This document shows positions 1,870 to 37,336 of a stretch of DNA of 37,382 nucleotides, piece after piece. The notes beneath the pieces were generated by a model that did not search any database, was not told where the DNA came from, and was given only the letters and a program-made list of their open reading frames with translations. The stretch is from a virus: positions 1 to 37,382 of IMG/VR virus record IMGVR_UViG_3300020164_000004. One strand, 5' to 3'. The stretch's first letter is position 1; each line of letters opens with the position of its first letter. The position numbers and the translations under genes were made by a program.

Positions 1870-3417
1870 ATGACAACAAAAGTCACATCATCAGTATTAT
1901 CGTTATCTGATATTGTATATACAGGTAACTTAACAACTTCAGCAACCAATAGTATAATTAATATTGGTTCTGGACAATTTTACAAAAGTAATACTGGTAA
2001 TGTTGCCATCGGCAAAACAAATCCTGCATATCTTCTTGATGTTAATGGTACAATATCCGCAAATTCTTTTGTTGCAACGGCAAATGTTTCTGCATCAAAT
2101 TTTATTGGTTCTGGATCTGGATTAACCTCTATACCAAACTCCGCATTAGTCAATACGTCTATTACTATTAATGGAACAACAATACCATTAGGTGGTTCAA
2201 CTACCATTTCTGCTGGTGCAACCATAACAGATGATACAACAACCAATGCTTCTCGTTATGTTATGTTGGGGCAGGCAACTTCTGGTTCTTATTTGGTTGC
2301 AAATACTTCCAGTACGAAATTAACATATAATCCAAGTACTGGTACACTTACATCAACAGCGCTCTCCACATCAACTACCTCGTTAAATAGCGGCGTCTTT
2401 GTTGCAGCAACTTCGGGACAAGTTTTATTAACCGCAAACACTGGGCCAGGGGCTTATAATCCTATAGTACAGTCGGGTGACCAATTATTGATGTTCAACT
2501 CCGGAGCAAGGGATACAGGAGTACTATCTATTGCTCCTTGGTCCATAACGGCATTCGGTCTGAGAATGGTCCAGTCCACTAGCACAGCAACATTAACAGG
2601 AACATTAGCCGCAACAGCATTTGCTGGTTCTGGTGCATCACTAACTTCTATTCCTAATTCCGCATTAGTTAATTCATCTATTACTATTAATGGAACAGCA
2701 ATTTCTCTTGGATCTTCTGGGTCAATTTCTGCTGGTGCAACCATAACAGATGATACCACAACCAATGCTACTAGATATGTCATGCTGGGCACCGCAACAT
2801 CCGGTTCATATACAATAGCCAATACTTCAAGTACAAAATTAACGTATAATCCAAACACTGGCACATTAAGTGCGACAGCATTTGCTGGTTCTGGTACAGG
2901 ATTAACATCTATACCAAACTCATCTTTATCTAATTCATCTATTACAATTAATGGGTCATCAGTATCGTTAGGTGGTTCCACAACTATATCTGCTGGTGCA
3001 ACCATAACAGATGATACCACAACCAATGCTACTAGATATGTCATGCTGGGCACCGCAACATCCGGTTCATATACAATAGCCAATACATCTTCTTCTAAAT
3101 TGTATTTTAATCCAAGTACAGGTACAACATATTCTACTTTGTTTCAATCATTATCTGATGAAACACAGAAAACCAATTTGACTCCTATTGTCAATGCAAC
3201 AGACACACTCAAACAAATTGATGGGTTTGAATTTGATTGGAGAGATAATGGATTAAAATCTGCTGGTGTTATCGCCCAAGAATTAGAAAAGATATTACCT
3301 TGGTTGGTTTCTGAGAATGATGGTGTTAAGAGTGTGAACTATTCCGGTTTAATTGCATATCTCATACAATCTAATAAGGAATTAGCTGATAGAATAGAGA
3401 AGTTGGAGAATAAGTAA
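1870..3417 (+). CDS. Tail fibre/spike protein with S74 intramolecular chaperone
   Basis: 515 residues. The body is beta-rich with three tandem copies of a unit of about 87 residues (LTSIPNSALVN, then ITDDTTTN, then RYVMLG, then SGSY). From residue 429 the C-terminus is a Peptidase_S74 intramolecular chaperone domain: SDETQK gives the Ser429/Lys434 pair spaced as in endosialidases, followed by FEFDWRDNG, AGVIAQELEKILP and a final helix ending in LADRIEKLENK. In this family the domain helps the fibre trimerise and then cleaves itself off before the Ser. This is therefore a trimeric receptor-binding or side fibre, with its mature end near residue 428. The stop overlaps the next ATG by one base. 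Confidence 0.88.
   Translation: MTTKVTSSVLSLSDIVYTGNLTTSATNSIINIGSGQFYKSNTGNVAIGKTNPAYLLDVNGTISANSFVATANVSASNFIGSGSGLTSIPNSALVNTSITINGTTIPLGGSTTISAGATITDDTTTNASRYVMLGQATSGSYLVANTSSTKLTYNPSTGTLTSTALSTSTTSLNSGVFVAATSGQVLLTANTGPGAYNPIVQSGDQLLMFNSGARDTGVLSIAPWSITAFGLRMVQSTSTATLTGTLAATAFAGSGASLTSIPNSALVNSSITINGTAISLGSSGSISAGATITDDTTTNATRYVMLGTATSGSYTIANTSSTKLTYNPNTGTLSATAFAGSGTGLTSIPNSSLSNSSITINGSSVSLGGSTTISAGATITDDTTTNATRYVMLGTATSGSYTIANTSSSKLYFNPSTGTTYSTLFQSLSDETQKTNLTPIVNATDTLKQIDGFEFDWRDNGLKSAGVIAQELEKILPWLVSENDGVKSVNYSGLIAYLIQSNKELADRIEKLENK
2728..3086 (+). repeat. Perfect 98-bp direct repeat inside the S74 fibre gene
   Basis: Bases 2728-2825 and 2989-3086 are identical (offset 261 bp, 87 codons). 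A more diverged third copy of the encoded unit starts near 2210. The identity includes silent positions, which indicates recent duplication or conversion. Confidence 0.9.
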
Positions 3418-4592
3418 TGTCAGGATTTAACGAAGCATCAGAAGGTGACTTTGATAGAGTATTCTTTACTAATACTGAGTTATTTGAAAACTTTGTCGGT
3501 ACTACTTTATGGTCATGGGGTTATAATGGTTATGGTTCATTAGGAGATAATTCCACTGTTGATAAATCCAGTCCAGTAACCACAGTAGCTGGAGGTACCA
3601 ATTGGAAACAGGTAGCATGTGGTTATTATCACACAGCAGCTATTAAAACTGATGGTACCTTATGGACATGGGGATTTAATGGTAATGGTGGATTAGGAGA
3701 TGGCACCATTGGTGGTAAATCCAGTCCTGTAACAACAGTAGCTGGTGGTACTAATTGGAAACAGGTAGCAGGTGGATCATATCATACAGCAGCTATTAAA
3801 ACTGATGGTACTTTATGGACATGGGGAAATAATCCTTATGGTGCATTAGGAGATAATACCACTGTTAATAAATCCAGTCCAGTAACCACAGTAGCTGGTG
3901 GTACCAATTGGAAACAGGTATCAGGTGGTTATGGTCATACAGCAGCTATTAAAACAGATGGAACTCTATGGACATGGGGAAATAATTTTTATGGTGGATT
4001 AGGAGATAGTACCACTGTTGATAAATCCAGTCCAATAACTACAGTAGCTGGTGGTACCAATTGGAAACAAGTGGCAGGTGGAAATTATCACACAGCAGCA
4101 ATTAAAACAGATGGCACCTTATGGACATGGGGATTTAATGCTTATGGTGGATTAGGAGATAATACTACTGTTAATAAATCCAGTCCAATAACAACAGTAG
4201 CTGGAGGTACCAATTGGAAACAGGTAGCATGTGGAACATATTCCGCAGCGGCAATTAAAACAGATGGTACCTTATGGACATGGGGAATGAATAATAGTAA
4301 TCGAGGAGTAGCATACGGCCAGCTTGGTGACGGGACTTCTATCCATAGATCATCACCAGTAACCACAGTAGCTGGTGGTACCAATTGGAAACAGGTAGCA
4401 GGTGGTGGTACTCTTACAGCAGCTGTTAAAACTGATGGTACTTTATGGACATGGGGATGGAATTTTTATGGTAACTTAGGAGATGGTACCACTGTTAATA
4501 AATCCAGTCCAGTAACCACTGTTGCTGGTGGTACTAATTGGAAACAGGTAGCATGTAGTGTTGGTAACCCAGCAGCACTAGGACAGAACTAA
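3417..4592 (+). CDS. RCC1-type beta-propeller protein 1 (putative phage adhesin)
   Basis: 391 residues: an N-terminal leader of 30 residues, then seven tandem RCC1-like units of about 51 residues. Each unit runs LWTWG, then N..G.LGD, then KSSPVTTVAGGTNWKQV, then HTAAIKTDGT. Seven units match a closed seven-bladed propeller. The last unit is degenerate (CSVGNPAALGQN). RCC1 propellers are interaction platforms; the eukaryotic RCC1 function does not apply here. It is translationally coupled to the S74 fibre gene by a TAATG overlap, and two similar genes follow, so a role as a tail-tip or fibre-tip adhesin is inferred. No signal peptide is seen. Confidence 0.85.
   Translation: MSGFNEASEGDFDRVFFTNTELFENFVGTTLWSWGYNGYGSLGDNSTVDKSSPVTTVAGGTNWKQVACGYYHTAAIKTDGTLWTWGFNGNGGLGDGTIGGKSSPVTTVAGGTNWKQVAGGSYHTAAIKTDGTLWTWGNNPYGALGDNTTVNKSSPVTTVAGGTNWKQVSGGYGHTAAIKTDGTLWTWGNNFYGGLGDSTTVDKSSPITTVAGGTNWKQVAGGNYHTAAIKTDGTLWTWGFNAYGGLGDNTTVNKSSPITTVAGGTNWKQVACGTYSAAAIKTDGTLWTWGMNNSNRGVAYGQLGDGTSIHRSSPVTTVAGGTNWKQVAGGGTLTAAVKTDGTLWTWGWNFYGNLGDGTTVNKSSPVTTVAGGTNWKQVACSVGNPAALGQN
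3507..4580 (+). repeat. Array of seven RCC1-coding units of about 153 bp (gene 1)
   Basis: The unit is nearly identical at DNA level, with blocks such as ACCAATTGGAAACAGGTA and GCTATTAAAACTGATGG recurring. Differences cluster in the codons around the WG..N, LGD and GG..HT positions. The same unit recurs at 5369-6448 and 7559-8640. Confidence 0.9.
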
Positions 4593-4617
4593 AATATAAT
4601 ATATAAAGAGAATCAAT

Positions 4618-5247
4618 ATGCAATATGTATTAATTAACGACAATTTTGTAATTAATGGTCCAAGAACTTGGAATGCTCGTTCTTTTGAATCCACTCTAGA
4701 AGATGATTTAGAGATTACTTACAAACTTCCATTACAAAAGACCGATAATGATCCTATTGTTATTGATGAGAATACTAGAATTCTTGCTGCTGAATACATT
4801 TATCCTGGTTACAATGAAAAGATTGAGTACCTTCACGGTCCATTCTGGGATTACTCTAATGATTTTGCGACAGGAACATTCCAGATTCTACCAAAAGACA
4901 TTGATTGGGTAAAATCAAACTTATTAACAGAAGTTGCAGGTATTAGATACTCAAGAGAAATCTCTGGTGCCAATACCGCAATACAGAATACCACAGTCAC
5001 GATTGATACTTCTAGAGGAACTAGAGATATCTTTGTACAGAAATATTTGTTAATGGGTGATAATGATACTGTACAATGGAAATTCCCAGAAGCATGGTTA
5101 ATATTAACAAAGGCAGAATTGGGAGAAGTTGTTAACGCAGGAGTTACTCATGTACAAAGTCAATTTGATTGGGAAGTAACCAAGAGTACTGAGATCAATA
5201 ATTGCGTGACTTTAGAAGAATTAGACGCAATCAAACTAGACGAATAA
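4618..5247 (+). CDS. Hypothetical phage protein, possibly DUF4376-like, between propeller genes
   Basis: 209 residues, AAAGAG ribosome-binding site. The C-terminal half (about residues 113-195: REISGANTAIQN, then TIDTSRGTRDIFVQKYLL, then AWLILTKAELGEVV, then HVQSQFDWE) has the layout I associate with DUF4376, a domain common in proteins encoded beside phage tail-fibre genes. The N-terminal half is acidic and not recognised. It is followed by propeller gene 2 after one base, so the two are probably translated together. A tail-fibre assembly or accessory role is inferred. The DUF assignment is tentative. Confidence 0.55.
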   Translation: MQYVLINDNFVINGPRTWNARSFESTLEDDLEITYKLPLQKTDNDPIVIDENTRILAAEYIYPGYNEKIEYLHGPFWDYSNDFATGTFQILPKDIDWVKSNLLTEVAGIRYSREISGANTAIQNTTVTIDTSRGTRDIFVQKYLLMGDNDTVQWKFPEAWLILTKAELGEVVNAGVTHVQSQFDWEVTKSTEINNCVTLEELDAIKLDE

Positions 5248-5248
5248 A

Positions 5249-6451
5249 ATGACAGCTAATACCAATTATCTAGATTCAACCGGAACTGATTTATCTAATG
5301 TCTATGTGACAAAAGAATATATTATGGATTGGTATCCAGATTTGGTGCCACAGTTACAAACTCCTCAGTTGTGGACATGGGGATTAAATATTTTTGGTGA
5401 ATTAGGAGATAATACCACTGTTAATAAATCCAGTCCAGTGACCACAGTAGCTGGTGGTACTAATTGGAAACAGGTGGCAGCTGCAATATTTCGAACGCAA
5501 CAGACAGCAGCTATTAAAACAGATGGTACCTTATGGACATGGGGACATGGTTCTTTTGGTGAATTAGGAGATAATACCGCTGTTAATAAGTCCAGTCCAG
5601 TAACAACTGCTGGTGGTGGTACCAATTGGAAACAAGTGGCATGTGGTTATTGGAATGCAGCAGCTATTAAAACAGATGGTACTTTATGGTCATGGGGATA
5701 TAATGGTCAAGGTGAATTAGGAGATAATACCGTTGTTACTAAATCAAGTCCAGTACAACCAACTGGTGGTGGTACCAATTGGAAACAAGTGGCATGTGGA
5801 TATCATACAGCAGCTATTAAAACAGATGGTACTTTATGGTCATGGGGATATAATAGTAATGGTCAATTAGGAAATAATACCGTTGTCAGTAAATCAAGTC
5901 CTGTAACCACAGTTGCTGGTGGTACCAATTGGAAACAGGTAGCATGTGGTTATAGTCATACAGCAGCTATTAAAACAGATGGTACCTTATGGACATGGGG
6001 ATATAATGGTTATGGTCAATTAGGAGATAATACCACTGTTGATAAATCCAGTCCAGTGACCACAGTAGCTGGTGGTACTAATTGGAAACAGGTATCAGGT
6101 GGATCTTTCCATACAGCAGCTATTAAAACAGATGGTACTTTATGGACATGGGGATCTAATGGTATTGGTGCATTAGGAAATAATTCCACTGTTGACATAT
6201 CTTCTCCAGTAACAACTGCTGGTGGTGGTACCAATTGGAAACAGGTATCAGGTGGAAATTATCACACAGCAGCTATTAAAACAGATGGTACTTTATGGTC
6301 ATGGGGATATAATAGTAATGGTGCATTAGGAAATAATACCACTGTTGATAAATCCAGTCCAGTGACCACAGTAGCTGGTGGTACTAATTGGAAACAGGTA
6401 GCAGGTGGTAATTCTCACACAATCGCCATCTCTGAATCTGAAGGTTGGTAA
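5249..6451 (+). CDS. RCC1-type beta-propeller protein 2 (putative phage adhesin)
   Basis: 400 residues: a 40-residue leader, then seven RCC1-like units starting at LWTWG (residue 41), with the same conserved core (KSSPVTT, GGTNWKQV, TAAIKTDGT) as its neighbours. Unit 1 has a longer loop (AAAIFRTQQTAA), and some units carry PTGGG or TAGGG in place of TVAGG. The leader contains DLSNVYVTKEYIMD, similar in pattern to the leaders of propellers 1 and 3, which could be the shared attachment site to the virion. Start codon one base after the preceding stop. Adhesin function is inferred from location and fold. Confidence 0.83.
   Translation: MTANTNYLDSTGTDLSNVYVTKEYIMDWYPDLVPQLQTPQLWTWGLNIFGELGDNTTVNKSSPVTTVAGGTNWKQVAAAIFRTQQTAAIKTDGTLWTWGHGSFGELGDNTAVNKSSPVTTAGGGTNWKQVACGYWNAAAIKTDGTLWSWGYNGQGELGDNTVVTKSSPVQPTGGGTNWKQVACGYHTAAIKTDGTLWSWGYNSNGQLGNNTVVSKSSPVTTVAGGTNWKQVACGYSHTAAIKTDGTLWTWGYNGYGQLGDNTTVDKSSPVTTVAGGTNWKQVSGGSFHTAAIKTDGTLWTWGSNGIGALGNNSTVDISSPVTTAGGGTNWKQVSGGNYHTAAIKTDGTLWSWGYNSNGALGNNTTVDKSSPVTTVAGGTNWKQVAGGNSHTIAISESEGW
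5369..6448 (+). repeat. Array of seven RCC1-coding units (gene 2)
   Basis: Tandem units of about 153 bp with the same near-identical core DNA as at 3507-4580 and 7559-8640. The three arrays form 21 homologous units within 5.2 kb. Confidence 0.9.
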
Positions 6452-6455
6452 TCCT

Positions 6456-6971
6456 ATGTCAATATTGAAAACTATGACAATTGATGGTTTCTACACACAA
6501 GAAGAAGCCACAAGACTTGAGAATGTAACTTTCAATTTACAATATGTACCAACAGAATTCGGTGAAGAAATTCCACAATTCAATATGGTACCAGAAAACT
6601 CCAATGAGTTATTCTCCAAAGTATTGAAACTTCCTGTAACAGTCAAAGATGAACAATCTGGTGTATTCAGATTACCAAACAGATCCAATTTTATACACTT
6701 TGAGGGGTTTGACACATTAAATGAATGGCTCTTTGTAGTTGCTATTCAGCAGTCCACATTTAATATATTTGAACACCAATCAGGTGTTACTACTGCATTA
6801 GAAGGTTATCAATTTAATTATATGAATTTGTTTGAATGGGATTTAATGTGTAATTATGTACTGAAACCGGGACAAGGTGTATTTTTTAGACCTTGGTTAT
6901 TTCATTCTTTTGATTCTGGATTAATTCAAATTTTTAGGTTAGAGGAATCTACGCGAGTAACAGAAGGATAA
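6456..6971 (+). CDS. Hypothetical protein, possible cupin/2OG-oxygenase-like fold
   Basis: The ATG at 6456 is preferred over one at 6405 that would overlap the propeller gene by 47 bases; it gives 171 residues. The pattern FIHFEGF, then NEWLFVVAIQQSTFNIF, then LKPGQGVFFRPWLFHSF, then IQIFRLEE looks like the strands of a double-stranded beta-helix with His residues near each end, as in phage 2-oxoglutarate/Fe(II) oxygenase relatives. A canonical HxD pair is not clear, so catalytic activity is doubtful. The last residues (STRVTEG) appear to replace an older end: the second 39-bp repeat copy still encodes LEENDHKL and a stop in this gene's original frame. Confidence 0.5.
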   Translation: MSILKTMTIDGFYTQEEATRLENVTFNLQYVPTEFGEEIPQFNMVPENSNELFSKVLKLPVTVKDEQSGVFRLPNRSNFIHFEGFDTLNEWLFVVAIQQSTFNIFEHQSGVTTALEGYQFNYMNLFEWDLMCNYVLKPGQGVFFRPWLFHSFDSGLIQIFRLEESTRVTEG

Positions 6972-7461
6972 ATCTAAACAATATTATGATAATGAGAAAT
7001 GTAAATAGAGATATAATTAAAAGAAATGTTGATGAATGGACTGCACAAAGTCCACACGCAACAAAGGAACAAATATTTCAACAAGTATGTAATGAATTAG
7101 ATTCGGGAAGTAGTTTTGCATTACAATATGAAAATTTCATTATGGTAACAAAACCTATTAATAATTGGGTAGGAGAAGTTCATATATTCTCGGAAAATAA
7201 AAAAAGTTCTGTGATTGCATTTAAAAGTATAACACAATATATTTTTGAGAATACTCCTGCCATCAAATTATACGGTAAATTTTCCAATAAAAAGATTTTA
7301 AGTTTAATATTAAAATCCAATTGGAAACATGAAGGTACATTAGAGAAAACATTTGTTTGTATGAATGGTGAATTAAAAGATTTATATATTGCTGGAGTTA
7401 GTAAGGAAGATTTTATTAAATGTTTGATTCTGGATTAATTCAAATTTTTAGGTTAGAGGAA
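6909..7461 (+). repeat. 39-bp direct repeats flanking an inserted gene
   Basis: Bases 6909-6947 and 7423-7461 are identical over 39 bp (offset 514). Copy 1 encodes SFDSGLIQIFRLEE near the end of the upstream gene. Copy 2 contains the last codons of the gene at 6986-7438 in another frame and supplies the AGAGGA ribosome-binding site of propeller gene 3. The arrangement is a duplication made when the 514-bp segment entered. Confidence 0.93.
6986..7438 (+). CDS. Hypothetical protein on an inserted segment, GNAT-like C-terminal pattern
   Basis: 150 residues; ATG at 6986, with a second ATG at 6992. It is not confidently recognised. The section KLYGKFSNKKILSLILKSNWKHEG followed by LEKTF has the N..S....K.GWK.EG-like end of GNAT-type acetyltransferases, but the acetyl-CoA loop is not evident. 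The gene lies on a 514-bp segment bounded by 39-bp direct repeats and has lower GC and more Lys and Ile than the propeller genes around it, so it is likely a later insertion. Its final codons (KCLILD, stop) are made by the repeat itself. Confidence 0.5.
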   Translation: MIMRNVNRDIIKRNVDEWTAQSPHATKEQIFQQVCNELDSGSSFALQYENFIMVTKPINNWVGEVHIFSENKKSSVIAFKSITQYIFENTPAIKLYGKFSNKKILSLILKSNWKHEGTLEKTFVCMNGELKDLYIAGVSKEDFIKCLILD

Positions 7462-7462
7462 A

Positions 7463-8665
7463 ATGACCACAAACTTTAAAGTAAATCAGTCTATCGGTAA
7501 CTATCAAGTTGACATTGATGATATTCTGATAAGAAGAGAGTATTTTAGTGATGGTGGATTGTGGACATGGGGGTCCAACACCTATTTAGGCGTTGTGGCG
7601 AGAGGACAACTTGGTGATGGAACCACCGTTAATAAATCCAGTCCAGTAACAACTGCTGGCGGTGGTACTAATTGGAAACAAGTAGCAGGCTCTACTGGTG
7701 GTTATCATACAGCAGCTATCAAAACAGATGGCACTTTATGGACATGGGGATATAATGGTTATGGTAACTTAGGAGATAATACCAATGTCGCTAAATCCTC
7801 TCCAGTAACAACAGTAGCTGGAGGTACCAATTGGAAACAGGTAGCATGTGGTTATAGACATACAGCAGCTATTAAAACAGATGGTACCTTATGGACATGG
7901 GGATATAATGGTTATGGTAACTTAGGAGATAATACCGCTGTTAATAAATCCAGTCCAGTAACAACTGCTGGTGGTGGTACCAATTGGAAACAGGTAGCAG
8001 GTGGATATTTTCACACAGCATCTATTAAAACAGATGGTACCTTATGGACATGGGGGTATAATAATTATGGCGGATTAGGAGATAATACCACTGTCAGTAA
8101 ATCCAGTCCAGTAACAACGGTAGCTGGTGGTACCAATTGGAAACAGGTATCAGGTGGTCAATATCACACAGCAGCTATTAAAACAGATGGCACTTTATGG
8201 ACATGGGGATATAATGGTTATGGTAACTTAGGAGATAATACCACTGTTGATAAATCCAGTCCAGTAACCACAGTAGCTGGTGGTACCAATTGGAAACAGG
8301 TAGCATGTGGTTATAGACATGTAGCAGCTATTAAAACAGATGGTACTTTATGGACATGGGGATATAATGGTATTGGTGCATTAGGAGATAATTCCACTGT
8401 TGATAAATCCAGTCCAATAACAACAGTAGCTGGAGGTACCAATTGGAAACAGGTATCAGGTGGTCAATATCACACAGCAGCTATTAAAACAGATGGCACT
8501 TTATGGACATGGGGATCCAATAATGTTGGTCAATTAGGAGATAATACCAATGTTAATGGATCCTCACCAGGAACTACAGTAACAGGTGGTACCAATTGGA
8601 AACAGGTAGCATGTGGACCTGTCAGCACATTCGCAATCACAGACCTCACCATAGGAACATACTAA
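7463..8665 (+). CDS. RCC1-type beta-propeller protein 3 (putative phage adhesin)
   Basis: 400 residues: a 32-residue leader, then seven RCC1-like units. Several units share the identical string LWTWGYNGYGNLGDN. Loop positions differ from propellers 1 and 2, and unit 1 has an insertion (YLGVVARGQ) also seen in unit 6 of propeller 1 (NRGVAYGQ). The ribosome-binding site AGAGGAAA lies in the 39-bp repeat. Like the others it has no signal peptide, as expected for a virion part. It is the last adhesin-type gene before the sulfotransferase cassette. Confidence 0.83.
   Translation: MTTNFKVNQSIGNYQVDIDDILIRREYFSDGGLWTWGSNTYLGVVARGQLGDGTTVNKSSPVTTAGGGTNWKQVAGSTGGYHTAAIKTDGTLWTWGYNGYGNLGDNTNVAKSSPVTTVAGGTNWKQVACGYRHTAAIKTDGTLWTWGYNGYGNLGDNTAVNKSSPVTTAGGGTNWKQVAGGYFHTASIKTDGTLWTWGYNNYGGLGDNTTVSKSSPVTTVAGGTNWKQVSGGQYHTAAIKTDGTLWTWGYNGYGNLGDNTTVDKSSPVTTVAGGTNWKQVACGYRHVAAIKTDGTLWTWGYNGIGALGDNSTVDKSSPITTVAGGTNWKQVSGGQYHTAAIKTDGTLWTWGSNNVGQLGDNTNVNGSSPGTTVTGGTNWKQVACGPVSTFAITDLTIGTY
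7559..8640 (+). repeat. Array of seven RCC1-coding units (gene 3)
   Basis: Third array of about 153-bp units, sharing near-identical DNA blocks with the arrays at 3507-4580 and 5369-6448. Units 2, 3 and 5 are almost the same over their first 60 bases. Confidence 0.9.
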
Positions 8666-8690: not shown

Positions 8691-9464
8691 ATGAAAAGCT
8701 ACAATTTCATCTCAGGGTTGCCGCGATCAGGATCAACCCTTTTGACTTCAATATTGAATCAAAACCCAAACTTCTATTCCAATATTTCAAATCCTCTTGC
8801 TAGATTTGTAAGATCAATCATTACTGAATCTCATGCTGGTCCTGGATATCACCTTCAATGTCCAGAAAACAAAAGATTTGAATTGATTCAAAATCTAATC
8901 TCAACATACCATTCAGATGTTACACAAGAAGTATGTTTCAACACCAATCGTGGTTGGACCGCACTTCTTCCTATTTTAGAAAAAACACATCCTGATGATA
9001 AAATCATTTGTTGCGTCAGAGATATTCGGTGGGTACTAGATTCATTTGAAGTTCTATTCAGAAAGAACCCATTTCAACTCTCTAGAATGTATTCTGATGA
9101 TGAAGCACAGTCTGTTTACACCAGAGCATATGCTTCTATGTCACCAGGACACACGGTAAGATTCGCATATGACGCTCTCAAAGAAGCAATCACTGGCCCA
9201 CAGAAACACATGATTATGCTTTTGGAATACGAACAACTTGCAAAGTATCCAGAACAAACCATGAAGGCACTATATAATTTTATTGATGAACCATATTACC
9301 AACATGATTTTGATAATGTAGAATGTACATATGATGAATATGATATGGATGCTGGTATTAATGGATTACACACCATCAGAAGAAAAGTAGAATATATTGA
9401 AAGAGATCCAATTCTGCCTCCTGACCTTTGGAATGAGTTTTCCGACCTTGAAGTTTGGCGATGA
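8691..9464 (+). CDS. PAPS-dependent sulfotransferase
   Basis: 258 codons. The N-terminus carries the 5'-phosphosulfate-binding loop GLPRSGSTLL (residues 9-18), and CVRDIRWVLDSFE (108-120) is the 3'-phosphate-binding motif with Arg110 and Ser118. These place it in the sulfotransferase superfamily (Sulfotransfer_3 type), which moves sulfate from PAPS to a hydroxyl or amine of a glycan, protein or small molecule. It is soluble, with no membrane anchor. It is the first gene of a tightly packed modification cassette and its stop overlaps the next start (ATGA). The acceptor is unknown; a virion glycan or adhesin residue is suggested by context only. Confidence 0.88.
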   Translation: MKSYNFISGLPRSGSTLLTSILNQNPNFYSNISNPLARFVRSIITESHAGPGYHLQCPENKRFELIQNLISTYHSDVTQEVCFNTNRGWTALLPILEKTHPDDKIICCVRDIRWVLDSFEVLFRKNPFQLSRMYSDDEAQSVYTRAYASMSPGHTVRFAYDALKEAITGPQKHMIMLLEYEQLAKYPEQTMKALYNFIDEPYYQHDFDNVECTYDEYDMDAGINGLHTIRRKVEYIERDPILPPDLWNEFSDLEVWR

Positions 9465-10168
9465 TTAATATAATTTATAGAGTTTGTGAAAATGAAACAG
9501 ATGGTAATTTTAAAGATTGTAGACCTAGTTGGTTCAATAAACTAAACTGTTTAAAATCTTTCTTAACTTCAGTCGTATACGCTGGAAATAATGTTGATAA
9601 ATTAATATTTTTACATGATGGGCCTGAAGGACTATTATTTGATTACATCAACAACTGTAAAGTAAAATCAGAAATCATTAAAATTAATCTCAGAAATCAA
9701 ACTCAGAGTTTATTTAAATCTGTTGAAATTGCAAACTATCTATGTCTATCCACAGAAAGTGATATCTATTTTATTGAAGATGATTATTTACATCAAAAAG
9801 ACTCTGTATTAAAATTATCAAAAGCGGTAAAGACTTTTGGCTTGGTTACCGGATATGACCATCTTTACAGATATATTCCAGTTAACCCACCAGATGTGGA
9901 ATATCCTTTGAAAATAGTATTTGATGGTGAAACTAATTTACATTGGAGAACAACTGAATCTACCACACATTCTTGGTTAACAAGAAATGATATCTATAAA
10001 AAAATATCAAATGAAATTTTAAATTTTGGACTGTGGGATATAGGTCTTTTTATTGAGTTACACAGACAAGGATTTTCATTATGGAGTCCAATGCCCGGTT
10101 TAACAACTCATGTAGATAATCTAATGTCTCCAGGTATTGATTGGGAAAAATTTAATAATGAAATATAA
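9461..10168 (+). CDS. GT-A-like glycosyltransferase
   Basis: ATG at 9461 overlaps the sulfotransferase TGA; an upstream TTG at 9455 is less likely. 235 residues. The section DIYFIEDDYLHQ (about 101-112) supplies an acidic EDD motif like the metal/nucleotide-sugar site of GT-A enzymes, after KLIFLHDGPEG, a typical strand-loop for the nucleotide-binding half. GLVTGYDHLYRY and GLTTHVDN recur in the N-terminal half of the protein at 12367-13761, so the two are paralogues. Transfer of a sugar to a phage or host surface structure is inferred; donor and acceptor are unknown. Confidence 0.65.
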   Translation: MINIIYRVCENETDGNFKDCRPSWFNKLNCLKSFLTSVVYAGNNVDKLIFLHDGPEGLLFDYINNCKVKSEIIKINLRNQTQSLFKSVEIANYLCLSTESDIYFIEDDYLHQKDSVLKLSKAVKTFGLVTGYDHLYRYIPVNPPDVEYPLKIVFDGETNLHWRTTESTTHSWLTRNDIYKKISNEILNFGLWDIGLFIELHRQGFSLWSPMPGLTTHVDNLMSPGIDWEKFNNEI

Positions 10169-10493
10169 AACATTTCAACTTAAAGCTGTTACCGTAGAAA
10201 GAGATATTCCAGAAACAAATCCAGATTGTCATTCAGTGAAATGTACTGAATGTTGTGAGAGACTTTCTCCTTTCCTGACAGAACAGGAATTTCTTTCGGG
10301 TAAATATATCTACACTTTCCTTAATGTCGGTGATGAGAGAAAACCAGCCATTGCAATTCCCAGAACAGATAGAGGTTGTATCTACCTGGATGAGAATAAA
10401 ATGTGTACTATATATGAGTATAGACCTTTGGCGTGTAGACAATTTGACTGTAGGTTGGGACACCATCCAAATATAGAAAATAAATTTATTTGA
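10158..10493 (+). CDS. YkgJ-family cysteine-cluster protein
   Basis: ATG at 10158, overlapping the glycosyltransferase stop, is preferred to a longer non-ATG start; 111 residues. Cysteines C24, C29, C32 and C33 (CHSVKCTECC) are followed by GCIYLDENKMCTIYEYRPLAC and FDC, the CxxCxxCC-type metal or Fe-S cluster signature of PF03692 (YkgJ). That family also includes the flagellin lysine methylase FliB, but this protein is too short to be a full FliB. Role in the cassette unknown; a metal/Fe-S partner of a modification enzyme is possible. Confidence 0.78.
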   Translation: MKYKTFQLKAVTVERDIPETNPDCHSVKCTECCERLSPFLTEQEFLSGKYIYTFLNVGDERKPAIAIPRTDRGCIYLDENKMCTIYEYRPLACRQFDCRLGHHPNIENKFI

Positions 10494-10500
10494 GGTTATT

Positions 10501-11049
10501 ATGAAATTGAATATTGGTGCCGGTGATACTCGGTATAATGGTTTTTTGAATTGTGATTATGATGAACATTCAAATCCAGATTATGTTTTTGACCTAGAAA
10601 AAGATCCATTTCCATTTGAAGATAATTCCATAGAAGAAGTTATTGCCCATCATGTTCTGGAACATATGGGTGAAGGTTATTTTCATTGCCTCCAAGAACT
10701 ATACAGAGTGTGTAAACATGGTGCAATGATTGATATCAGAGTTCCACACCATAGACATGATCATTTTATCAACGATCCAACACACCGCAGAGCAATCACT
10801 CCCGGTGGACTTTGGTTATTCAGTAAAAAATATAATGATACTGCAAAGGAACAAGGTGCTGCCGCTTCTAGACTCGCATATTACTATAATGTAAACTTTG
10901 AAGTTCTAGATGTTATCAATATTCCAAGTAAAGAATATATAAAGGTGTTTGAAGGCAAAACTGTCCAAGAAGTTGAACAGTATATGCATGAACACAATAA
11001 CATCATTGAAGAAGTGAATATTAAACTAATAGTGATCAAAGATGATTGA
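10501..11049 (+). CDS. Class I SAM-dependent methyltransferase
   Basis: 182 residues. LNIGAGDTRYNGFLNCDYD (3-21) is motif I with the acidic residue closing strand 2, DLEKDPFPFEDNSIEEVIAHHVLEH (31-55) covers motifs II and III in the type-11 methyltransferase style, and the helix LQELYRVCKHGAMIDIRVP follows. Such enzymes are common in glycan gene clusters. The acceptor is unknown. RBS GAGGTTATT just upstream; the stop overlaps the next gene by 8 bases, indicating coupled translation. Confidence 0.8.
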   Translation: MKLNIGAGDTRYNGFLNCDYDEHSNPDYVFDLEKDPFPFEDNSIEEVIAHHVLEHMGEGYFHCLQELYRVCKHGAMIDIRVPHHRHDHFINDPTHRRAITPGGLWLFSKKYNDTAKEQGAAASRLAYYYNVNFEVLDVINIPSKEYIKVFEGKTVQEVEQYMHEHNNIIEEVNIKLIVIKDD

Positions 11050-12370: not shown

Positions 12371-13761
12371 TAGACATACATTATGCAATACAAACTTGTG
12401 ATGTTTTTTCCAATCAACGACAAGAAAGATATTGTTCAAATAATAGAACATTGATATCCAAGAAGTGTATTAAGTCTTTCCTAGAATCAGTCAATTATGT
12501 ATCCAAAAAGAAACCAGAAGTCAATCACACAATAAAATTATTTGATGACCACTCATCTCAAGAACTTGTGGATTTTTTGAAGCAATGTATTTCAAACTAT
12601 TCATCAGATAACATTAAAATAGAACTAGAATCTTTATCTGAATCTGGAATAATGCAATCAATTGGTTCTTGTTATTCTTGGTTAAAAGAAAATGGAAAAG
12701 ACCTAGTTTATCAGGTTCAGGATGATTATCTTTTTGAAGAAAATGCGATCTATGACATGATTGACATTTTCATGCAAGTATATTCTGATGTAGGAACAAT
12801 GCCAATAGTGACAGGTTATCATGATCCGCGATATTGGAGAATGGACTCATATCGTTATAAGTCAACACCAAGAATGGTAATTCCTGGAATCAACCAATAT
12901 TGGATGCAGTGTTTTGATATATCCTGTTCGTTCATGACAGGACACCAACAGTTAGTTCAAAATTGGGATATGTTAGAATACTTTTTAACTCTAGATCCAA
13001 CTGATGAAGATAAACTGGAGAATGTTTCTCTGAACCGAATTTTAGTAGACAGAGGACAATTAGGACTGATGCCCTTCAACTCTCTCACTTTACATATGCA
13101 AGGTGAATCAGAAAAAGATCTTTATATTGATTGGACGCGATTGTGGAGTAAACAGGAGGTTGAGTCAATCAATTTACCAGAGAAGGTTGTTTTAAATATT
13201 GGTTCGGGTAAAAACAAACTCAATTTTAATAGTCTAAAGGATTTTAAAGAGATTTCTTATGATGCAGATGTTAAGTTGAAACCAGATATCGTTGGAGACA
13301 TTCTGAAACTTGATGTCTTGAATAAAGAATCTGTTGATGTTATTTGGGCATCTCATATTGTGGAACATCTACACACAAAACAAGTTCCTAATGTTTTACA
13401 GAATATCAATAGAATTTTAAAGAAAGATGGTCTTGGAATAATTGTGGTGCCAAATATAAAAGAGATTGGTAAAGAGTTGTTCTTGGGAAAAATACATAAA
13501 TCAGTATATCTGTCTGATGCAGGACCAATAACTCCAATGGATATTCTATATGGTGCGGTAAATTTATCCGAAAATAATGACTTTATGATGCATAAAACAG
13601 GATTCACAGAAGAGTATGCTTCAGAATTATTAGGTTCTTTAAATATTAATGGTTATGTTAAATCTGTTGGTCATAATTTATTCATATTGATATGTAAAAA
13701 TGATATAGATAAATTATGTGTAAATGTGGATGATGTTATGGAAGATGTTTTTAGTCAATAG
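12367..13761 (+). CDS. Glycosyltransferase-methyltransferase fusion protein
   Basis: The ATG at 12367 overlaps the previous TGA (ATGA) and is preferred to one at 12319; 464 residues. Residues 1-265 form a GT-A-like domain with VYQVQDDYLFEE (QDD 118-120), MPIVTGYHDPRYW and NSLTLHMQG, homologous to the glycosyltransferase at 9461. Residues about 272-440 are a class I methyltransferase: VVLNIGSGKNKLNF (motif I), SVDVIWASHIVEHLH, LKKDGLGIIVVPN. The two activities probably act one after the other on the same glycan, adding and capping a sugar. It converges with the - strand epimerase gene, the 3' ends overlapping by 11 bases. Confidence 0.75.
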   Translation: MIDIHYAIQTCDVFSNQRQERYCSNNRTLISKKCIKSFLESVNYVSKKKPEVNHTIKLFDDHSSQELVDFLKQCISNYSSDNIKIELESLSESGIMQSIGSCYSWLKENGKDLVYQVQDDYLFEENAIYDMIDIFMQVYSDVGTMPIVTGYHDPRYWRMDSYRYKSTPRMVIPGINQYWMQCFDISCSFMTGHQQLVQNWDMLEYFLTLDPTDEDKLENVSLNRILVDRGQLGLMPFNSLTLHMQGESEKDLYIDWTRLWSKQEVESINLPEKVVLNIGSGKNKLNFNSLKDFKEISYDADVKLKPDIVGDILKLDVLNKESVDVIWASHIVEHLHTKQVPNVLQNINRILKKDGLGIIVVPNIKEIGKELFLGKIHKSVYLSDAGPITPMDILYGAVNLSENNDFMMHKTGFTEEYASELLGSLNINGYVKSVGHNLFILICKNDIDKLCVNVDDVMEDVFSQ

Positions 13762-14572
13762 CACAAGAATATTTCTGATAATGTTCCTTTAGGTTATCCG
13801 GCATAGGTATCCATTCAATAACATCCGGAGAACCACCAACTTCTAAAGCAACTTCGTAAAAAGATTTTGCTTTAGAAGTACCAATATCATAAATGCCATT
13901 TGGCTGATTATACCATATTTTTAACTTTTTGTCAATTAACTCTCCAACAGAAATAAAATCTCTAAAGAATTCTTTAGATCCTTCAAATAGTTTTATTTTA
14001 CCAGTTTCTTCCAATTGCTTTTTGAATTTGGAATATGGACTAGCCTGATCACCTTTATGATCTTCATTCGGTCCATAAACATTAAAGTATCTCATTCCTT
14101 GTAGTAATTTTGGTGGTCTTTTACTATTAATCACCAAATCAGCAACATAATCTATGTTTGCTTTAGATTTAGCATATAAATTTAATGGGTTTAATGGTTT
14201 ATCTTTTTGATGCCAAACTTCTTTTTGTGGATTTCCATAAACACTCGCCGAACTAGCATAATGTAAAGGCATATTATTATCCCTACAATAATAAATGAGA
14301 TTTAATGTACACTCAACGTTTTTTTCTAATAGTTTGTTCCAATCTGTTTCTGTTGTTGATGATATTGCCCCCTCATGAAAAATATTAGAAACTCCAAAAC
14401 AATAATTATCTAAATTATCATAAAAATCATCAGCATATATAAAATATATTTTTGAGTAATCAATATAATCTCTTTTAACATAATCAACCGCAATCACTGT
14501 TTTATTTAATTGTAGTAATCTATTGACCAAATTGGAACCAATAAATCCACAAGCACCAGTTACTACAATCAT
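13751..14572 (-). CDS. hldD: ADP-glyceromanno-heptose 6-epimerase-like protein, short at the C-terminus
   Basis: 273 residues, extended SDR fold. TGACGFIG gives the NAD(P)-binding GxxGxxG (Gly6, 9, 12); HEGAISSTTETDW, YASSASVYG, LYAKSK (Tyr133/Lys137), RYFNVYGPNEDHKG (Lys173), LFEGSKEFFRDFISVGE and NGIYDIGTSKAKSF follow E. coli HldD closely. That enzyme converts ADP-D-glycero- to ADP-L-glycero-D-manno-heptose for LPS inner core. It lacks about 40 C-terminal residues relative to the 310-residue E. coli enzyme, ending at YQKYSCAID where its 3' end overlaps the convergent gene. Whether it is active is unclear. It is one of only two convincing - strand genes in the window. Confidence 0.82.
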   Translation of the reverse strand: MIVVTGACGFIGSNLVNRLLQLNKTVIAVDYVKRDYIDYSKIYFIYADDFYDNLDNYCFGVSNIFHEGAISSTTETDWNKLLEKNVECTLNLIYYCRDNNMPLHYASSASVYGNPQKEVWHQKDKPLNPLNLYAKSKANIDYVADLVINSKRPPKLLQGMRYFNVYGPNEDHKGDQASPYSKFKKQLEETGKIKLFEGSKEFFRDFISVGELIDKKLKIWYNQPNGIYDIGTSKAKSFYEVALEVGGSPDVIEWIPMPDNLKEHYQKYSCAID

Positions 14573-16863: not shown

Positions 16864-18384
16864 ATGATTGTGGAAAAATTCATACAACAAAATCTGCTAG
16901 ACAAAAATTCCAATATTCAATCGACGAAGACAAAGGAAGAATGGTTCATTAAAAATTGCTATGAAAAAGAATATTTGGAAATACTATCAAAAACTGAATT
17001 CTTAGACTCCCCAACATTTCCCCAAAGAATTTATCATATATTAAATTCCGTTGAAGTGCGGATTTTGTGTCCAAATTGTAATCTCAAGTCTCCAACTTTT
17101 GAATCCTATAATAAAGGATATAGGACATTTTGTTCTCCAAAATGCCAATCAAATTATACAAAGGAAAAAAGAAACCAGACTATTATAGACAAATATGGAG
17201 AACATCCATTTTGTAAAACATCTACGATAGAAAAAAGAAAACAAACTTGCCTTCAAAAATTTGGTTCGGAATTTCCATTTCAGAGCAAAGAAATACAAGA
17301 TAAGCAAAAAGAAACGATGTTAGATTCTTATGGAGTAATAAATCCATCAGAATTACAAGAAGTAAAAAACAAAAAAGTAAAAACTTGCCTAAACAATTGG
17401 AAAACCGAATATCCAATTCAATCTAAACAAATACAAGAAAAATCCAAGAATACTAATATTCAAAAATATGGAGTTGAATATTTTTTTCAATCGGATGAAT
17501 TTAAAGAGAGTATTAAAGGTTACATTTACCCAACACAATCAACTGGTGAAATTGAAGTTTTTGAATATATTAAATCAATAGTAAATTCAGAAATTGAACA
17601 GGGTAATAGAACAATTCTAAAAGGAAAAGAATTAGACATTTTAATAAAAGATAAAAATATAGCAATTGAGTATTGTGGTCTATATTGGCACTCAAACAAA
17701 TTTAGAAATAATTCATACCATAAACAAAAATTTAATCTATGTAAAGAACAAAACATCAGATTAATAACCATCTTTGAAGATGAATGGGTGTATAATAAAG
17801 AACTTGTAAAAACAAAATTGGCACATATTTTAAATTTAAACACTTCCAAAAAGATATTTGCTAGGAAATGCTCAATTAAATCATTGAATAATAAATATAA
17901 ATCAGAATTTTATAATAAATATCATATACAAGGCGATGGAAATTCTTCAATTAATATAGGACTCTATTATAATGATGAATTAGTTTCTTCTATTGGTTTT
18001 AAGAAAAGACGCCAAGGAATATATGAATTGGACCGATACGCAACAAAATATATTGTTGTTGGAGGATTTAATAGACTACTTAATCATTTCAAATCCAATT
18101 TTACTTGGACAGAAATAATAACTTTTGCGGATTTAAGATGGCATCTTGGAGAAGTATATCAAAATTCTGGATTTAAATTAGAAAAAACTCTACTACCGGA
18201 CTATTATTATCTTATAAATAATAGAAGAGTTCATAAATTTAATTTTAGAAAATCATCAATCAAAAAGAAATTCTCCGATTCATATGATGAAACTTTATCT
18301 GAATCTGAAAATATGGATAAAATAGGAATTCTTAAAGTATATGATTGTGGAAAAATTAGATTTAAATTAACCAATATAAATTAA
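16864..18384 (+). CDS. Homing-endonuclease-like protein (Vsr/EDxHD-type nuclease) upstream of gp13
   Basis: 506 residues, Lys- and Asn-rich. A zinc finger (C69, C72, C90, C94) is followed by four repeats of the type KYGxxxxFQSxExxxKxxxT (about 105-215), probably DNA-reading units. The nuclease core is ELDILIKDKNIAIEYCGLYWHS (Asp258, Glu269, His276) to IRLITIFEDEW (299-308), a layout like the Vsr-related I-Bth0305I family. Residues 345-506 (HIQGDGNSSINIGLYY, YELDRYATKYIVVGG, TFADLRWHLG) are a domain shared with the protein at 35744-37336 and look GNAT/Mom-like. It is a free-standing gene between virion genes, as homing endonucleases of T4-like phages often are. Confidence 0.8.
   Translation: MIVEKFIQQNLLDKNSNIQSTKTKEEWFIKNCYEKEYLEILSKTEFLDSPTFPQRIYHILNSVEVRILCPNCNLKSPTFESYNKGYRTFCSPKCQSNYTKEKRNQTIIDKYGEHPFCKTSTIEKRKQTCLQKFGSEFPFQSKEIQDKQKETMLDSYGVINPSELQEVKNKKVKTCLNNWKTEYPIQSKQIQEKSKNTNIQKYGVEYFFQSDEFKESIKGYIYPTQSTGEIEVFEYIKSIVNSEIEQGNRTILKGKELDILIKDKNIAIEYCGLYWHSNKFRNNSYHKQKFNLCKEQNIRLITIFEDEWVYNKELVKTKLAHILNLNTSKKIFARKCSIKSLNNKYKSEFYNKYHIQGDGNSSINIGLYYNDELVSSIGFKKRRQGIYELDRYATKYIVVGGFNRLLNHFKSNFTWTEIITFADLRWHLGEVYQNSGFKLEKTLLPDYYYLINNRRVHKFNFRKSSIKKKFSDSYDETLSESENMDKIGILKVYDCGKIRFKLTNIN
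18213..18220 (+). promoter_or_regulatory. TATAAATA inside the endonuclease gene, possible late promoter for gp13
   Basis: An exact octamer lies within the coding sequence, 178 bp before the gp13 start. No other late-type octamer lies between 16864 and gp13, so it could drive the neck genes. It may equally be a chance match in AT-rich coding DNA. Confidence 0.35.
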
Positions 18385-35720: not shown

Positions 35721-35745
35721 AAAGGGGTCTTCGGACCCCTTTTTT
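35721..35745 (+). terminator. Rho-independent terminator with UUCG tetraloop after gp23
   Basis: AAAGGGGTC (35721-35729) and GACCCCTTT (35734-35742) close a TTCG loop, followed by T residues. A smaller hairpin with a GAAA loop (AATAAC/GTTATT, 35703-35718) lies just before it. The stop codon of the convergent endonuclease gene (35744-35746 on the - strand) lies in the T-run. Confidence 0.93.
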
Positions 35746-37336
35746 ATTTCTTTAATACGAATTTTATCTTTCCGCAGTCATAAATTTTAGGAATTCCAAT
35801 CCGTTTCATATTTTGAGATTCAGATTCATTTGGATCATATTCATTCGGAAAGTGTTTTTCTATTAATTTTTTTCTGAAATTAAATTTGTGAATTCTTTTA
35901 TTTCTAATAACATATGAATAATCTGGAACTAATATTTTATCCTCAATAAAACCGTTTTTATAGTAAGATTCTCCATCATGCCATCTTAAATCGGCAAAAG
36001 TTATTATTTCATCCCAATTATAATTAGATTTAAAATGTGCTAGTAATTTTGAAAAACCCCCAACAATAGTATATTTTGTCGCATATCTTGTAAGTTCAAA
36101 TTTATTATTTTTATGATTTATAAATCCCATTACTGCAACCAGGGCATCGCTATAATAAAGTCCAAAATTTATTGAACTGTTTCCATTTCCTTGTATATGA
36201 TAGGAATTAAAAAAATCTATTTTATCTTTACCAACATAATCAACTTTACAGTTTCTCGCATATATTTTCATATCATAATTATGTCCTAATATATGAGATA
36301 TCTTTTTCTTTGTTAGTTCTTTATTATTAACCCATTCATCTTCAAATATAGTCAATAACCTAATTCCATTATTTTTACAGATAGTATATTTTTCTTTATG
36401 TTGATTTCTTCCTCTATATTTTTCTTGATGCCAATATAGTCCACAATACTCTATACCAACTTTTAATTCTTCATTAAATATATCAATCTCAATTCCAAAA
36501 ATTCTTTCCTTTTTAAATCCATCTTTTAGGGAATTACAAAAATTTAATATTTCCGTTTCTGCTTTCGATGTGCTTCCAATCGGATGATAATGAACTCCAT
36601 ATTTTTTTATAAATGTATTTTTTATTTTTTCTTTTATATCTTCCAATTCAAAGATATGATTAACTCCATATCTTTCAATATTTTTTTCGATAATTTTAGG
36701 CAAAACTTTGATTTTTATTGTATTAGAATGATTTAATTTTTTAATATTATATTCATCAAACCATTTTGATATGGTTACATTAGATACATTAAAAATTTTA
36801 CCAATATCAACAAGGGTTTTTGTTTTATACAATTTAATAAGGGTTTCTTTATCTGGAATTTCTTCTTTTTTATTCTTTACATTAGTTTTTTTTACTTCAA
36901 TACAAAATTCAACCAATTTTTTTGTTATTGGTACTGGAGAGCATCCTAATTCTTGTGCAATCAATTCTTTTGATTTTTTTAAAGTGATTCGTTGCTCATA
37001 TAACCATTCCTTATCATTAAGAAATTTTTGATATGGTTTATCCGAATCTTTATTTGCGCGAGAACACTCAGACCCACAATAATCTGAGAATCCTTTTGCT
37101 GGGTAATCTGCTTTATATTTTACAAGATTATTACAACATTTACATTTGGGGATTGTATGTACTTCATTGAAAATACAATAATATCTTAAAGATAGAGGAA
37201 CTATGGTATAAACATTAAGAAAGGAAGTTTCTTCCATTAAAATGGATTTAAATTTCAATTCATTAGAATTTTTTGATACGGACAATTTTATTGGTTTTAT
37301 TAAAGTACAAAACTCTACAATTTCTTTTGAATACAT
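35744..37336 (-). CDS. Homing-endonuclease-like protein behind gp23, paralogue of the one at 16864
   Basis: 530 residues. Zinc-finger cysteines C65, C68, C87 and C91 are followed by two helix-turn-helix-like segments (SKELIAQELGCSPVPITKKL near 122-141; TLVDIGKIFNVSNVTISKWF near 174-193) and two KYG repeats (223-250). The nuclease core is GIEIDIFNEELKVGIEYCGLYWH (Asp285, Glu296, His303) to IRLLTIFEDEW. The C-terminal 170 residues (YHIQGNGNSSINFGLYY, FELTRYATKYTIVGG, TFADLRWHDG, RIHKFNFRKK) closely match the gene at 16864. A typical free-standing selfish gene next to a conserved capsid gene. Confidence 0.8.
   Translation of the reverse strand: MYSKEIVEFCTLIKPIKLSVSKNSNELKFKSILMEETSFLNVYTIVPLSLRYYCIFNEVHTIPKCKCCNNLVKYKADYPAKGFSDYCGSECSRANKDSDKPYQKFLNDKEWLYEQRITLKKSKELIAQELGCSPVPITKKLVEFCIEVKKTNVKNKKEEIPDKETLIKLYKTKTLVDIGKIFNVSNVTISKWFDEYNIKKLNHSNTIKIKVLPKIIEKNIERYGVNHIFELEDIKEKIKNTFIKKYGVHYHPIGSTSKAETEILNFCNSLKDGFKKERIFGIEIDIFNEELKVGIEYCGLYWHQEKYRGRNQHKEKYTICKNNGIRLLTIFEDEWVNNKELTKKKISHILGHNYDMKIYARNCKVDYVGKDKIDFFNSYHIQGNGNSSINFGLYYSDALVAVMGFINHKNNKFELTRYATKYTIVGGFSKLLAHFKSNYNWDEIITFADLRWHDGESYYKNGFIEDKILVPDYSYVIRNKRIHKFNFRKKLIEKHFPNEYDPNESESQNMKRIGIPKIYDCGKIKFVLKK

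Follow-up and report, generated by a model that had tools for sequence, protein, structure and literature searches.

RCC1-type propeller genes beside an S74 tail-fibre gene in a T4-like phage as candidate jointly displayed adhesins

Gene content and order of the locus

The stretch of DNA that was analysed, called here the window, comprises positions 1-37,382 (37,382 bases) of the IMG/VR record IMGVR_UViG_3300020164_000004. A preliminary description of the sequence had placed the locus in a T4-like phage, and since the window encodes matches to a T4-type sheath, sheath stabiliser, terminase, scaffold and major head protein, this holds. That the virus is a cyanophage is unsupported because the counterparts of its major head protein in phages of Methylophilales, Stenotrophomonas, Pelagibacter and Synechococcus are all about as close to it, at 61-64% identity.

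The genes of interest lie on the plus strand in the order S74 fibre, gene A, DUF4376, gene B, two ORFs, gene C and sulfotransferase. The S74-chaperone tail-fibre gene (1870-3417; 515 aa) matches PF13884 (E=6.8e-11) and PHROG tail fibre and baseplate wedge families, and it lies directly 5' of gene A, as had been described, with the start of gene A at 3417 overlapping its stop by 1 nt. Gene A (3417-4592; alpha class) encodes a 30-aa N-terminal tag (3417-3506) followed by seven RCC1 blades (seven PF00415 matches, and PF25390). Downstream of it is the gene for a 209-aa DUF4376 protein (4618-5247; PF14301, E=1.4e-8; phrog_10508, a tail-fibre match, E=4e-8), possibly a tail-fibre assembly factor. 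Gene B (5249-6451; beta class) has a 40-aa tag (5249-5368) and seven blades (PF00415 seven times; PF25390, E=2e-109). It is followed by a conserved ORF (about 6459-6971), which is without a Pfam or PHROG match and is found in the same place in many relatives, and by a second ORF of 150 aa (6986-7438), which has no assigned family and, among the loci fetched, has a counterpart only in the nearest relative, L003. Gene C (7463-8665; gamma class) has a 32-aa tag (7463-7558) and again seven blades (PF00415 seven times; PF25390, E=4e-109), and the sulfotransferase-family gene (8691-9464; PF13469, E=1e-15) comes next. Genes A, B and C are all intact. They had been called tandem genes with coupled starts. 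They are not arranged head-to-tail because the DUF4376 gene parts A from B and two ORFs part B from C, and coupling fits gene A, with its 1-nt overlap, and gene B, which starts 1 nt past the DUF4376 gene, but not gene C, which is preceded by a gap of 24 nt.

RCC1 repeats and predicted fold

The three ORFs (A, 391 aa; B, 400 aa; C, 400 aa) gave 21 PF00415 matches, each of which exceeded the Pfam cut-off, and thus the earlier count of 21 units with seven in each gene was borne out. The units are 50-59 aa long with a mode of 51. Matches to WD40_RLD, the RCC1-like domain, ranged from E=1.9e-77 to 2e-109, and the PF25390 scores were 261-367 bits against a cut-off of 150. Each gene therefore has the seven PF00415/PF25390 repeats of about 50 residues that define an RCC1-repeat (RLD) seven-bladed propeller, and this signal is far beyond chance. 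Structure prediction, which had been proposed as a check with failure to close as the refuting outcome, gave AlphaFold (AF2) models of A (pLDDT 87.2, pTM 0.86) and C (pLDDT 87.6, pTM 0.85) that close as seven-bladed propellers and lie near solved RCC1-type structures. The model of gene A matched HERC2 RLD2 (7q40_A) with a VIA Z of 55, while the Foldseek matches of gene C in the PDB were UVR8, HERC1/2, RCC1 and BLIP-II, with TM 0.8-0.9 to RLD structures. Gene B, judged from its similar repeat structure, is probably a seven-bladed propeller as well. Although BLIP-II and the eukaryotic RCC1, UVR8 and HERC2 RLD proteins share this fold with the window proteins (VIA Z 33-55), they have only about 18-31% identity to them and belong to unrelated contexts and functions; Ran binding and nucleotide exchange, as in RCC1 proper, are not expected in a phage. 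Since the bacterial RCC1 relatives are spread over many phyla at 53% identity or less, a donor cannot be named. A cysteine recurs just past blade strand 3, in 9 of the 21 window blades and in 681 of 1523 blades overall, and so a propeller may carry several cysteines in a ring.

The cassette in related phages

A homology search for RCC1 arrays beside S74 genes, which had also been suggested, recovered the same cassette in the cultured phage S-SRM01 and in dozens of IMG/VR contigs. Of 68 IMG/VR loci, many share with S-SRM01 the order S74, alpha, DUF4376, beta, other gene(s), gamma, often with a sulfotransferase gene 3' of gamma, S-SRM01 included. In 27 of 34 loci the S74 gene immediately precedes alpha, for the most part overlapping it by 1-8 nt, and S-SRM01 is a 28th such locus by Pfam; DUF4376 is directly downstream of alpha in 31 of the 34. 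The cassette is not unique to the window but is ordinary for its phage group. S-SRM01 (NC_070963) is a Kyanoviridae cyanophage of Synechococcus whose RCC1 genes, gp335, gp337 and gp344, carry no annotation beyond 'regulator of chromosome condensation'; the S-SRM01 genome paper does not mention RCC1 (PMC8557907). Like the window it has an S74 fibre gene, RCC1, a hypothetical protein, RCC1, other genes, RCC1 and a sulfotransferase, with 64.5% protein identity to gene A at the best place, but it has more genes between beta and gamma and its alpha gene has six detected blades.

The RCC1 genes split into three classes, alpha, beta and gamma, by their short N-terminal tags. The preliminary description had proposed that the proteins are either interchangeable or jointly displayed. 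Because 22 distinct genomes have kept all three tag classes, joint display fits better and interchangeability less well. A search with a 42-aa tag found S-SRM01 as its sole match, and a weak one, and among the non-RCC1 proteins of the loci there was one weak match to the tags and none that was convincing. The tags of the three classes may be akin: comparison of the alpha and beta profiles gave a probability of 73%, but the beta-gamma result is not reliable, as some tags of the beta class had been sorted into the gamma set.

Propellers inside fibre proteins

Two relatives carry the propeller within the S74 fibre itself. In L027 the S74 fibre of 1117 aa consists of an N-terminal domain, collagen repeats, a seven-bladed propeller and S74, while in L032 a fibre of 2445 aa has 28 blades, equal to four propellers, spaced by collagen and linker segments and then followed by S74 (these two viruses are also represented by the assemblies L023 and L033). 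Both fused fibres are followed by RCC1-alpha and DUF4376 genes. The propeller is the same, but these viruses have it fused inside a fibre, up to four in a chain, whereas the window encodes it as a protein of its own. These fusions inside S74/collagen fibres are the strongest evidence that the propeller may be a fibre-head module, which in the window would be encoded separately. In L057 a propeller is joined to an fn3 domain and in L017, as judged by eye, to a glycine-rich domain. Blade number is strongly quantised, 111 of 128 distinct complete ORFs having 7 blades and 10 having 14, 21 or 28. In L017, L026, L034, L047, L051, L063 and L066 the beta or gamma position is taken by a protein of two or three propellers (14, 20 or 21 detected blades), which suggests gain of whole propellers.

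Variation is concentrated in loops of one predicted face

Genes B and C of the window were compared with those of L003, which does not cover gene A. Between these close relatives the tags are almost unchanged and the propellers are about 80% identical; the neighbouring genes have 89-99% protein identity, save for the more distant ORF at 13751-14572, and the dN of flanking genes is 0.002-0.060. In the loops after strands 1 and 3 dN was 0.266 (C) and 0.319 (B), as against 0.035 and 0.036 in the loops after strands 2 and 4 and 0.054 and 0.070 in the strands. The loops after strands 1 and 3 of a four-stranded meander are on one face and those after strands 2 and 4 on the other, and thus the two variable loops should share one face, a placement taken from strand order and not from coordinates. 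When 1531 blades were aligned by HMM alignment, the six positions of highest entropy (6, 8, 9, 19, 40 and 41) all fell in the loops after strands 1 and 3. With three independent close pairs pooled, 31.7% of loop positions on the variable face differed compared to 10.4% on the other face (Fisher p=5e-9). The pair L043/L044 was left out of the final test because the two are assemblies of a single virus that differ by one SNP in 17 kb; this SNP, at position 2766, alters an amino acid in one of the variable loops of the beta propeller. In the variable loops dN/dS between the window and L003 is about 0.9-1.1, and therefore positive selection is not demonstrated. Moreover, positional orthology of blades with L003 was not detectable (synonymous difference 0.179 versus 0.186, p=0.41), which makes dN/dS by blade position hard to interpret and no proof of selection.

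Blades are alike within a genome

In 224 of 231 genome pairs blades were closer to each other within a genome than to the same blade in the other genome. The synonymous difference was 0.33 between classes within a genome, whereas the same blade compared across genomes gave 0.494, a value near saturation. Codon usage as the sole cause of this likeness would predict 0.495 within a genome, and since 0.33 was observed, this explanation was rejected and the result points to homogenisation or turnover of blades within each genome. Recombination among near-identical scaffold DNA would most simply account for it. One loop of blade 5 in gene C of L003 has exactly the DNA sequence of a loop in blade 5 of gene B of the window, and apart from this case no direct blade swaps were seen. 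No match to RVT_1 (reverse transcriptase) was found in the window record, in the complete S-SRM01 genome or in six related contigs, which are possibly fragments, and with no reverse transcriptase in these eight records the propellers were not retained as targets of a diversity-generating retroelement.

RCC1 proteins described in other phages

RCC1 genes have been annotated in several phages, and the earlier statement that no phage set of this kind had been described is too strong in view of S-SRM01, GAP32 and PollyC; it stands insofar as no paper describing an RCC1 adhesin set was found in the open literature searched, outside which most subscription journals lie. In several papers the term RCC1 turned out to be a strain or locus name. 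Within the same literature we found no description of the group-wide pattern, namely, the three-propeller cassette, its tie to S74 and collagen, the variation on one predicted face and the homogenisation, for which we infer the function discussed below. GAP_001 of phage GAP32, an RCC1/BLIP-II-type protein that mass spectrometry detected in the virion, is multicopy in relatives (PMC5259590), but GAP_001 and the RCC1 families of Rak2-like jumbo phages belong to another phage group and resemble the window proteins weakly, at 20-21% in the fold search. Jumbo phage phAPEC6 has eleven RCC1-like proteins, for which DNA ordering was proposed (PMC7247149). Pseudomonas phage PollyC has RCC1 units in gp38, a protein whose N-terminus is probably that of a T7 tail fibre (the match is just under the Pfam cut-off), but unlike the window it is a podovirus with a single such gene. 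A beta-propeller in a phage receptor-binding protein is known from the RBP platform of Staphylococcus phages 80alpha and phi11, where it was proposed to bind the teichoic acid sugars of the cell wall (PMC7048315); that propeller differs in having five blades, in its family and in its trimeric stem.

Proposed role of the three proteins

As expected for phage receptor-binding proteins encoded in a tail-fibre module, the S74 gene is directly upstream and the gene order is conserved. We propose, with a probability of roughly 0.7, that the three genes code for tail-associated, jointly displayed adhesins with a variable receptor-facing side. Each protein would consist of a short N-terminal tag, perhaps the attachment site, and one closed seven-bladed RCC1-type propeller. 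Since the tags are class-specific and conserved, the three proteins probably hold three fixed places and are shown together. Because the genes are separate from the S74 fibre here and the tags have no convincing non-RCC1 carrier, attachment to the virion is something that we infer, and the focus of variability on loops suggests that the proteins may bind a host receptor. The blade scaffold is nearly fixed, each blade varying in its loops after strands 1 and 3, and the resulting fourteen variable loops per propeller, arranged around one face, would contact the cell-surface receptor. Near-identical scaffold DNA in the 21 blades could let recombination copy, convert or swap blades both within and between the three genes. 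That this is a widespread adhesin system with a fixed scaffold, diversified by blade swapping or conversion among the three genes and not by reverse transcriptase, we put forward only tentatively; if true, it would be a recombination-driven repertoire on a repeat-protein scaffold, in which three co-displayed proteins together carry about 42 variable loops.

Other roles have to be weighed against this. The propellers could be structural or decoration proteins of the virion or organisers of packaged DNA, for which the GAP32 virion protein (PMC5259590), the DNA-ordering proposal of the phAPEC6 authors (PMC7247149) and the placing of these families under DNA metabolism in PHROGs would count; but the site beside the S74 fibre gene and the fusions inside collagen/S74 fibres speak against it, and a DNA-organising surface would not need variability confined to loops, so we consider such a role improbable. 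RCC1-fold proteins are general binding platforms, and BLIP-II, which binds beta-lactamases, is among the structural matches. There is accordingly a small chance that the propellers act outside the virion, in the infected cell or after release, for example as decoys or inhibitors like BLIP-II, although the place in a tail module, the coupling to the fibre gene and the fibre fusions of relatives argue otherwise. It is similarly unlikely that the three proteins are alternatives used singly, or spare blade cassettes that vary one expressed fibre: the homogenisation of blades across the three genes and the loop shared by gene C of L003 and gene B of the window would agree with this, but the separate conserved tags with their own operon places in 22 distinct genomes and the intactness of all three window genes favour joint use.

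If the propellers are tail adhesins as we propose, many annotations of phage RCC1 genes, which are now filed as 'regulator of chromosome condensation' or under DNA metabolism, need change, and a role in host recognition that can be tested falls to a cassette common in aquatic phages. The layout in L027 and L032 is that of a propeller on collagen. Engineered repeat-protein binders would find a natural analogue in this scaffold, whose strands are fixed and whose loops are free.

Other genes of the window

Sulfotransferase and methyltransferase-like genes lie 3' of the cassette (8691-11049), here and often in relatives, and their products could modify sugars of the virion or of the host surface. 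Two genes match homing-endonuclease PHROG families (16864-18384, plus strand, and 35744-37336, minus strand), one of them close to the tail and terminase genes and the other beside the major head gene.
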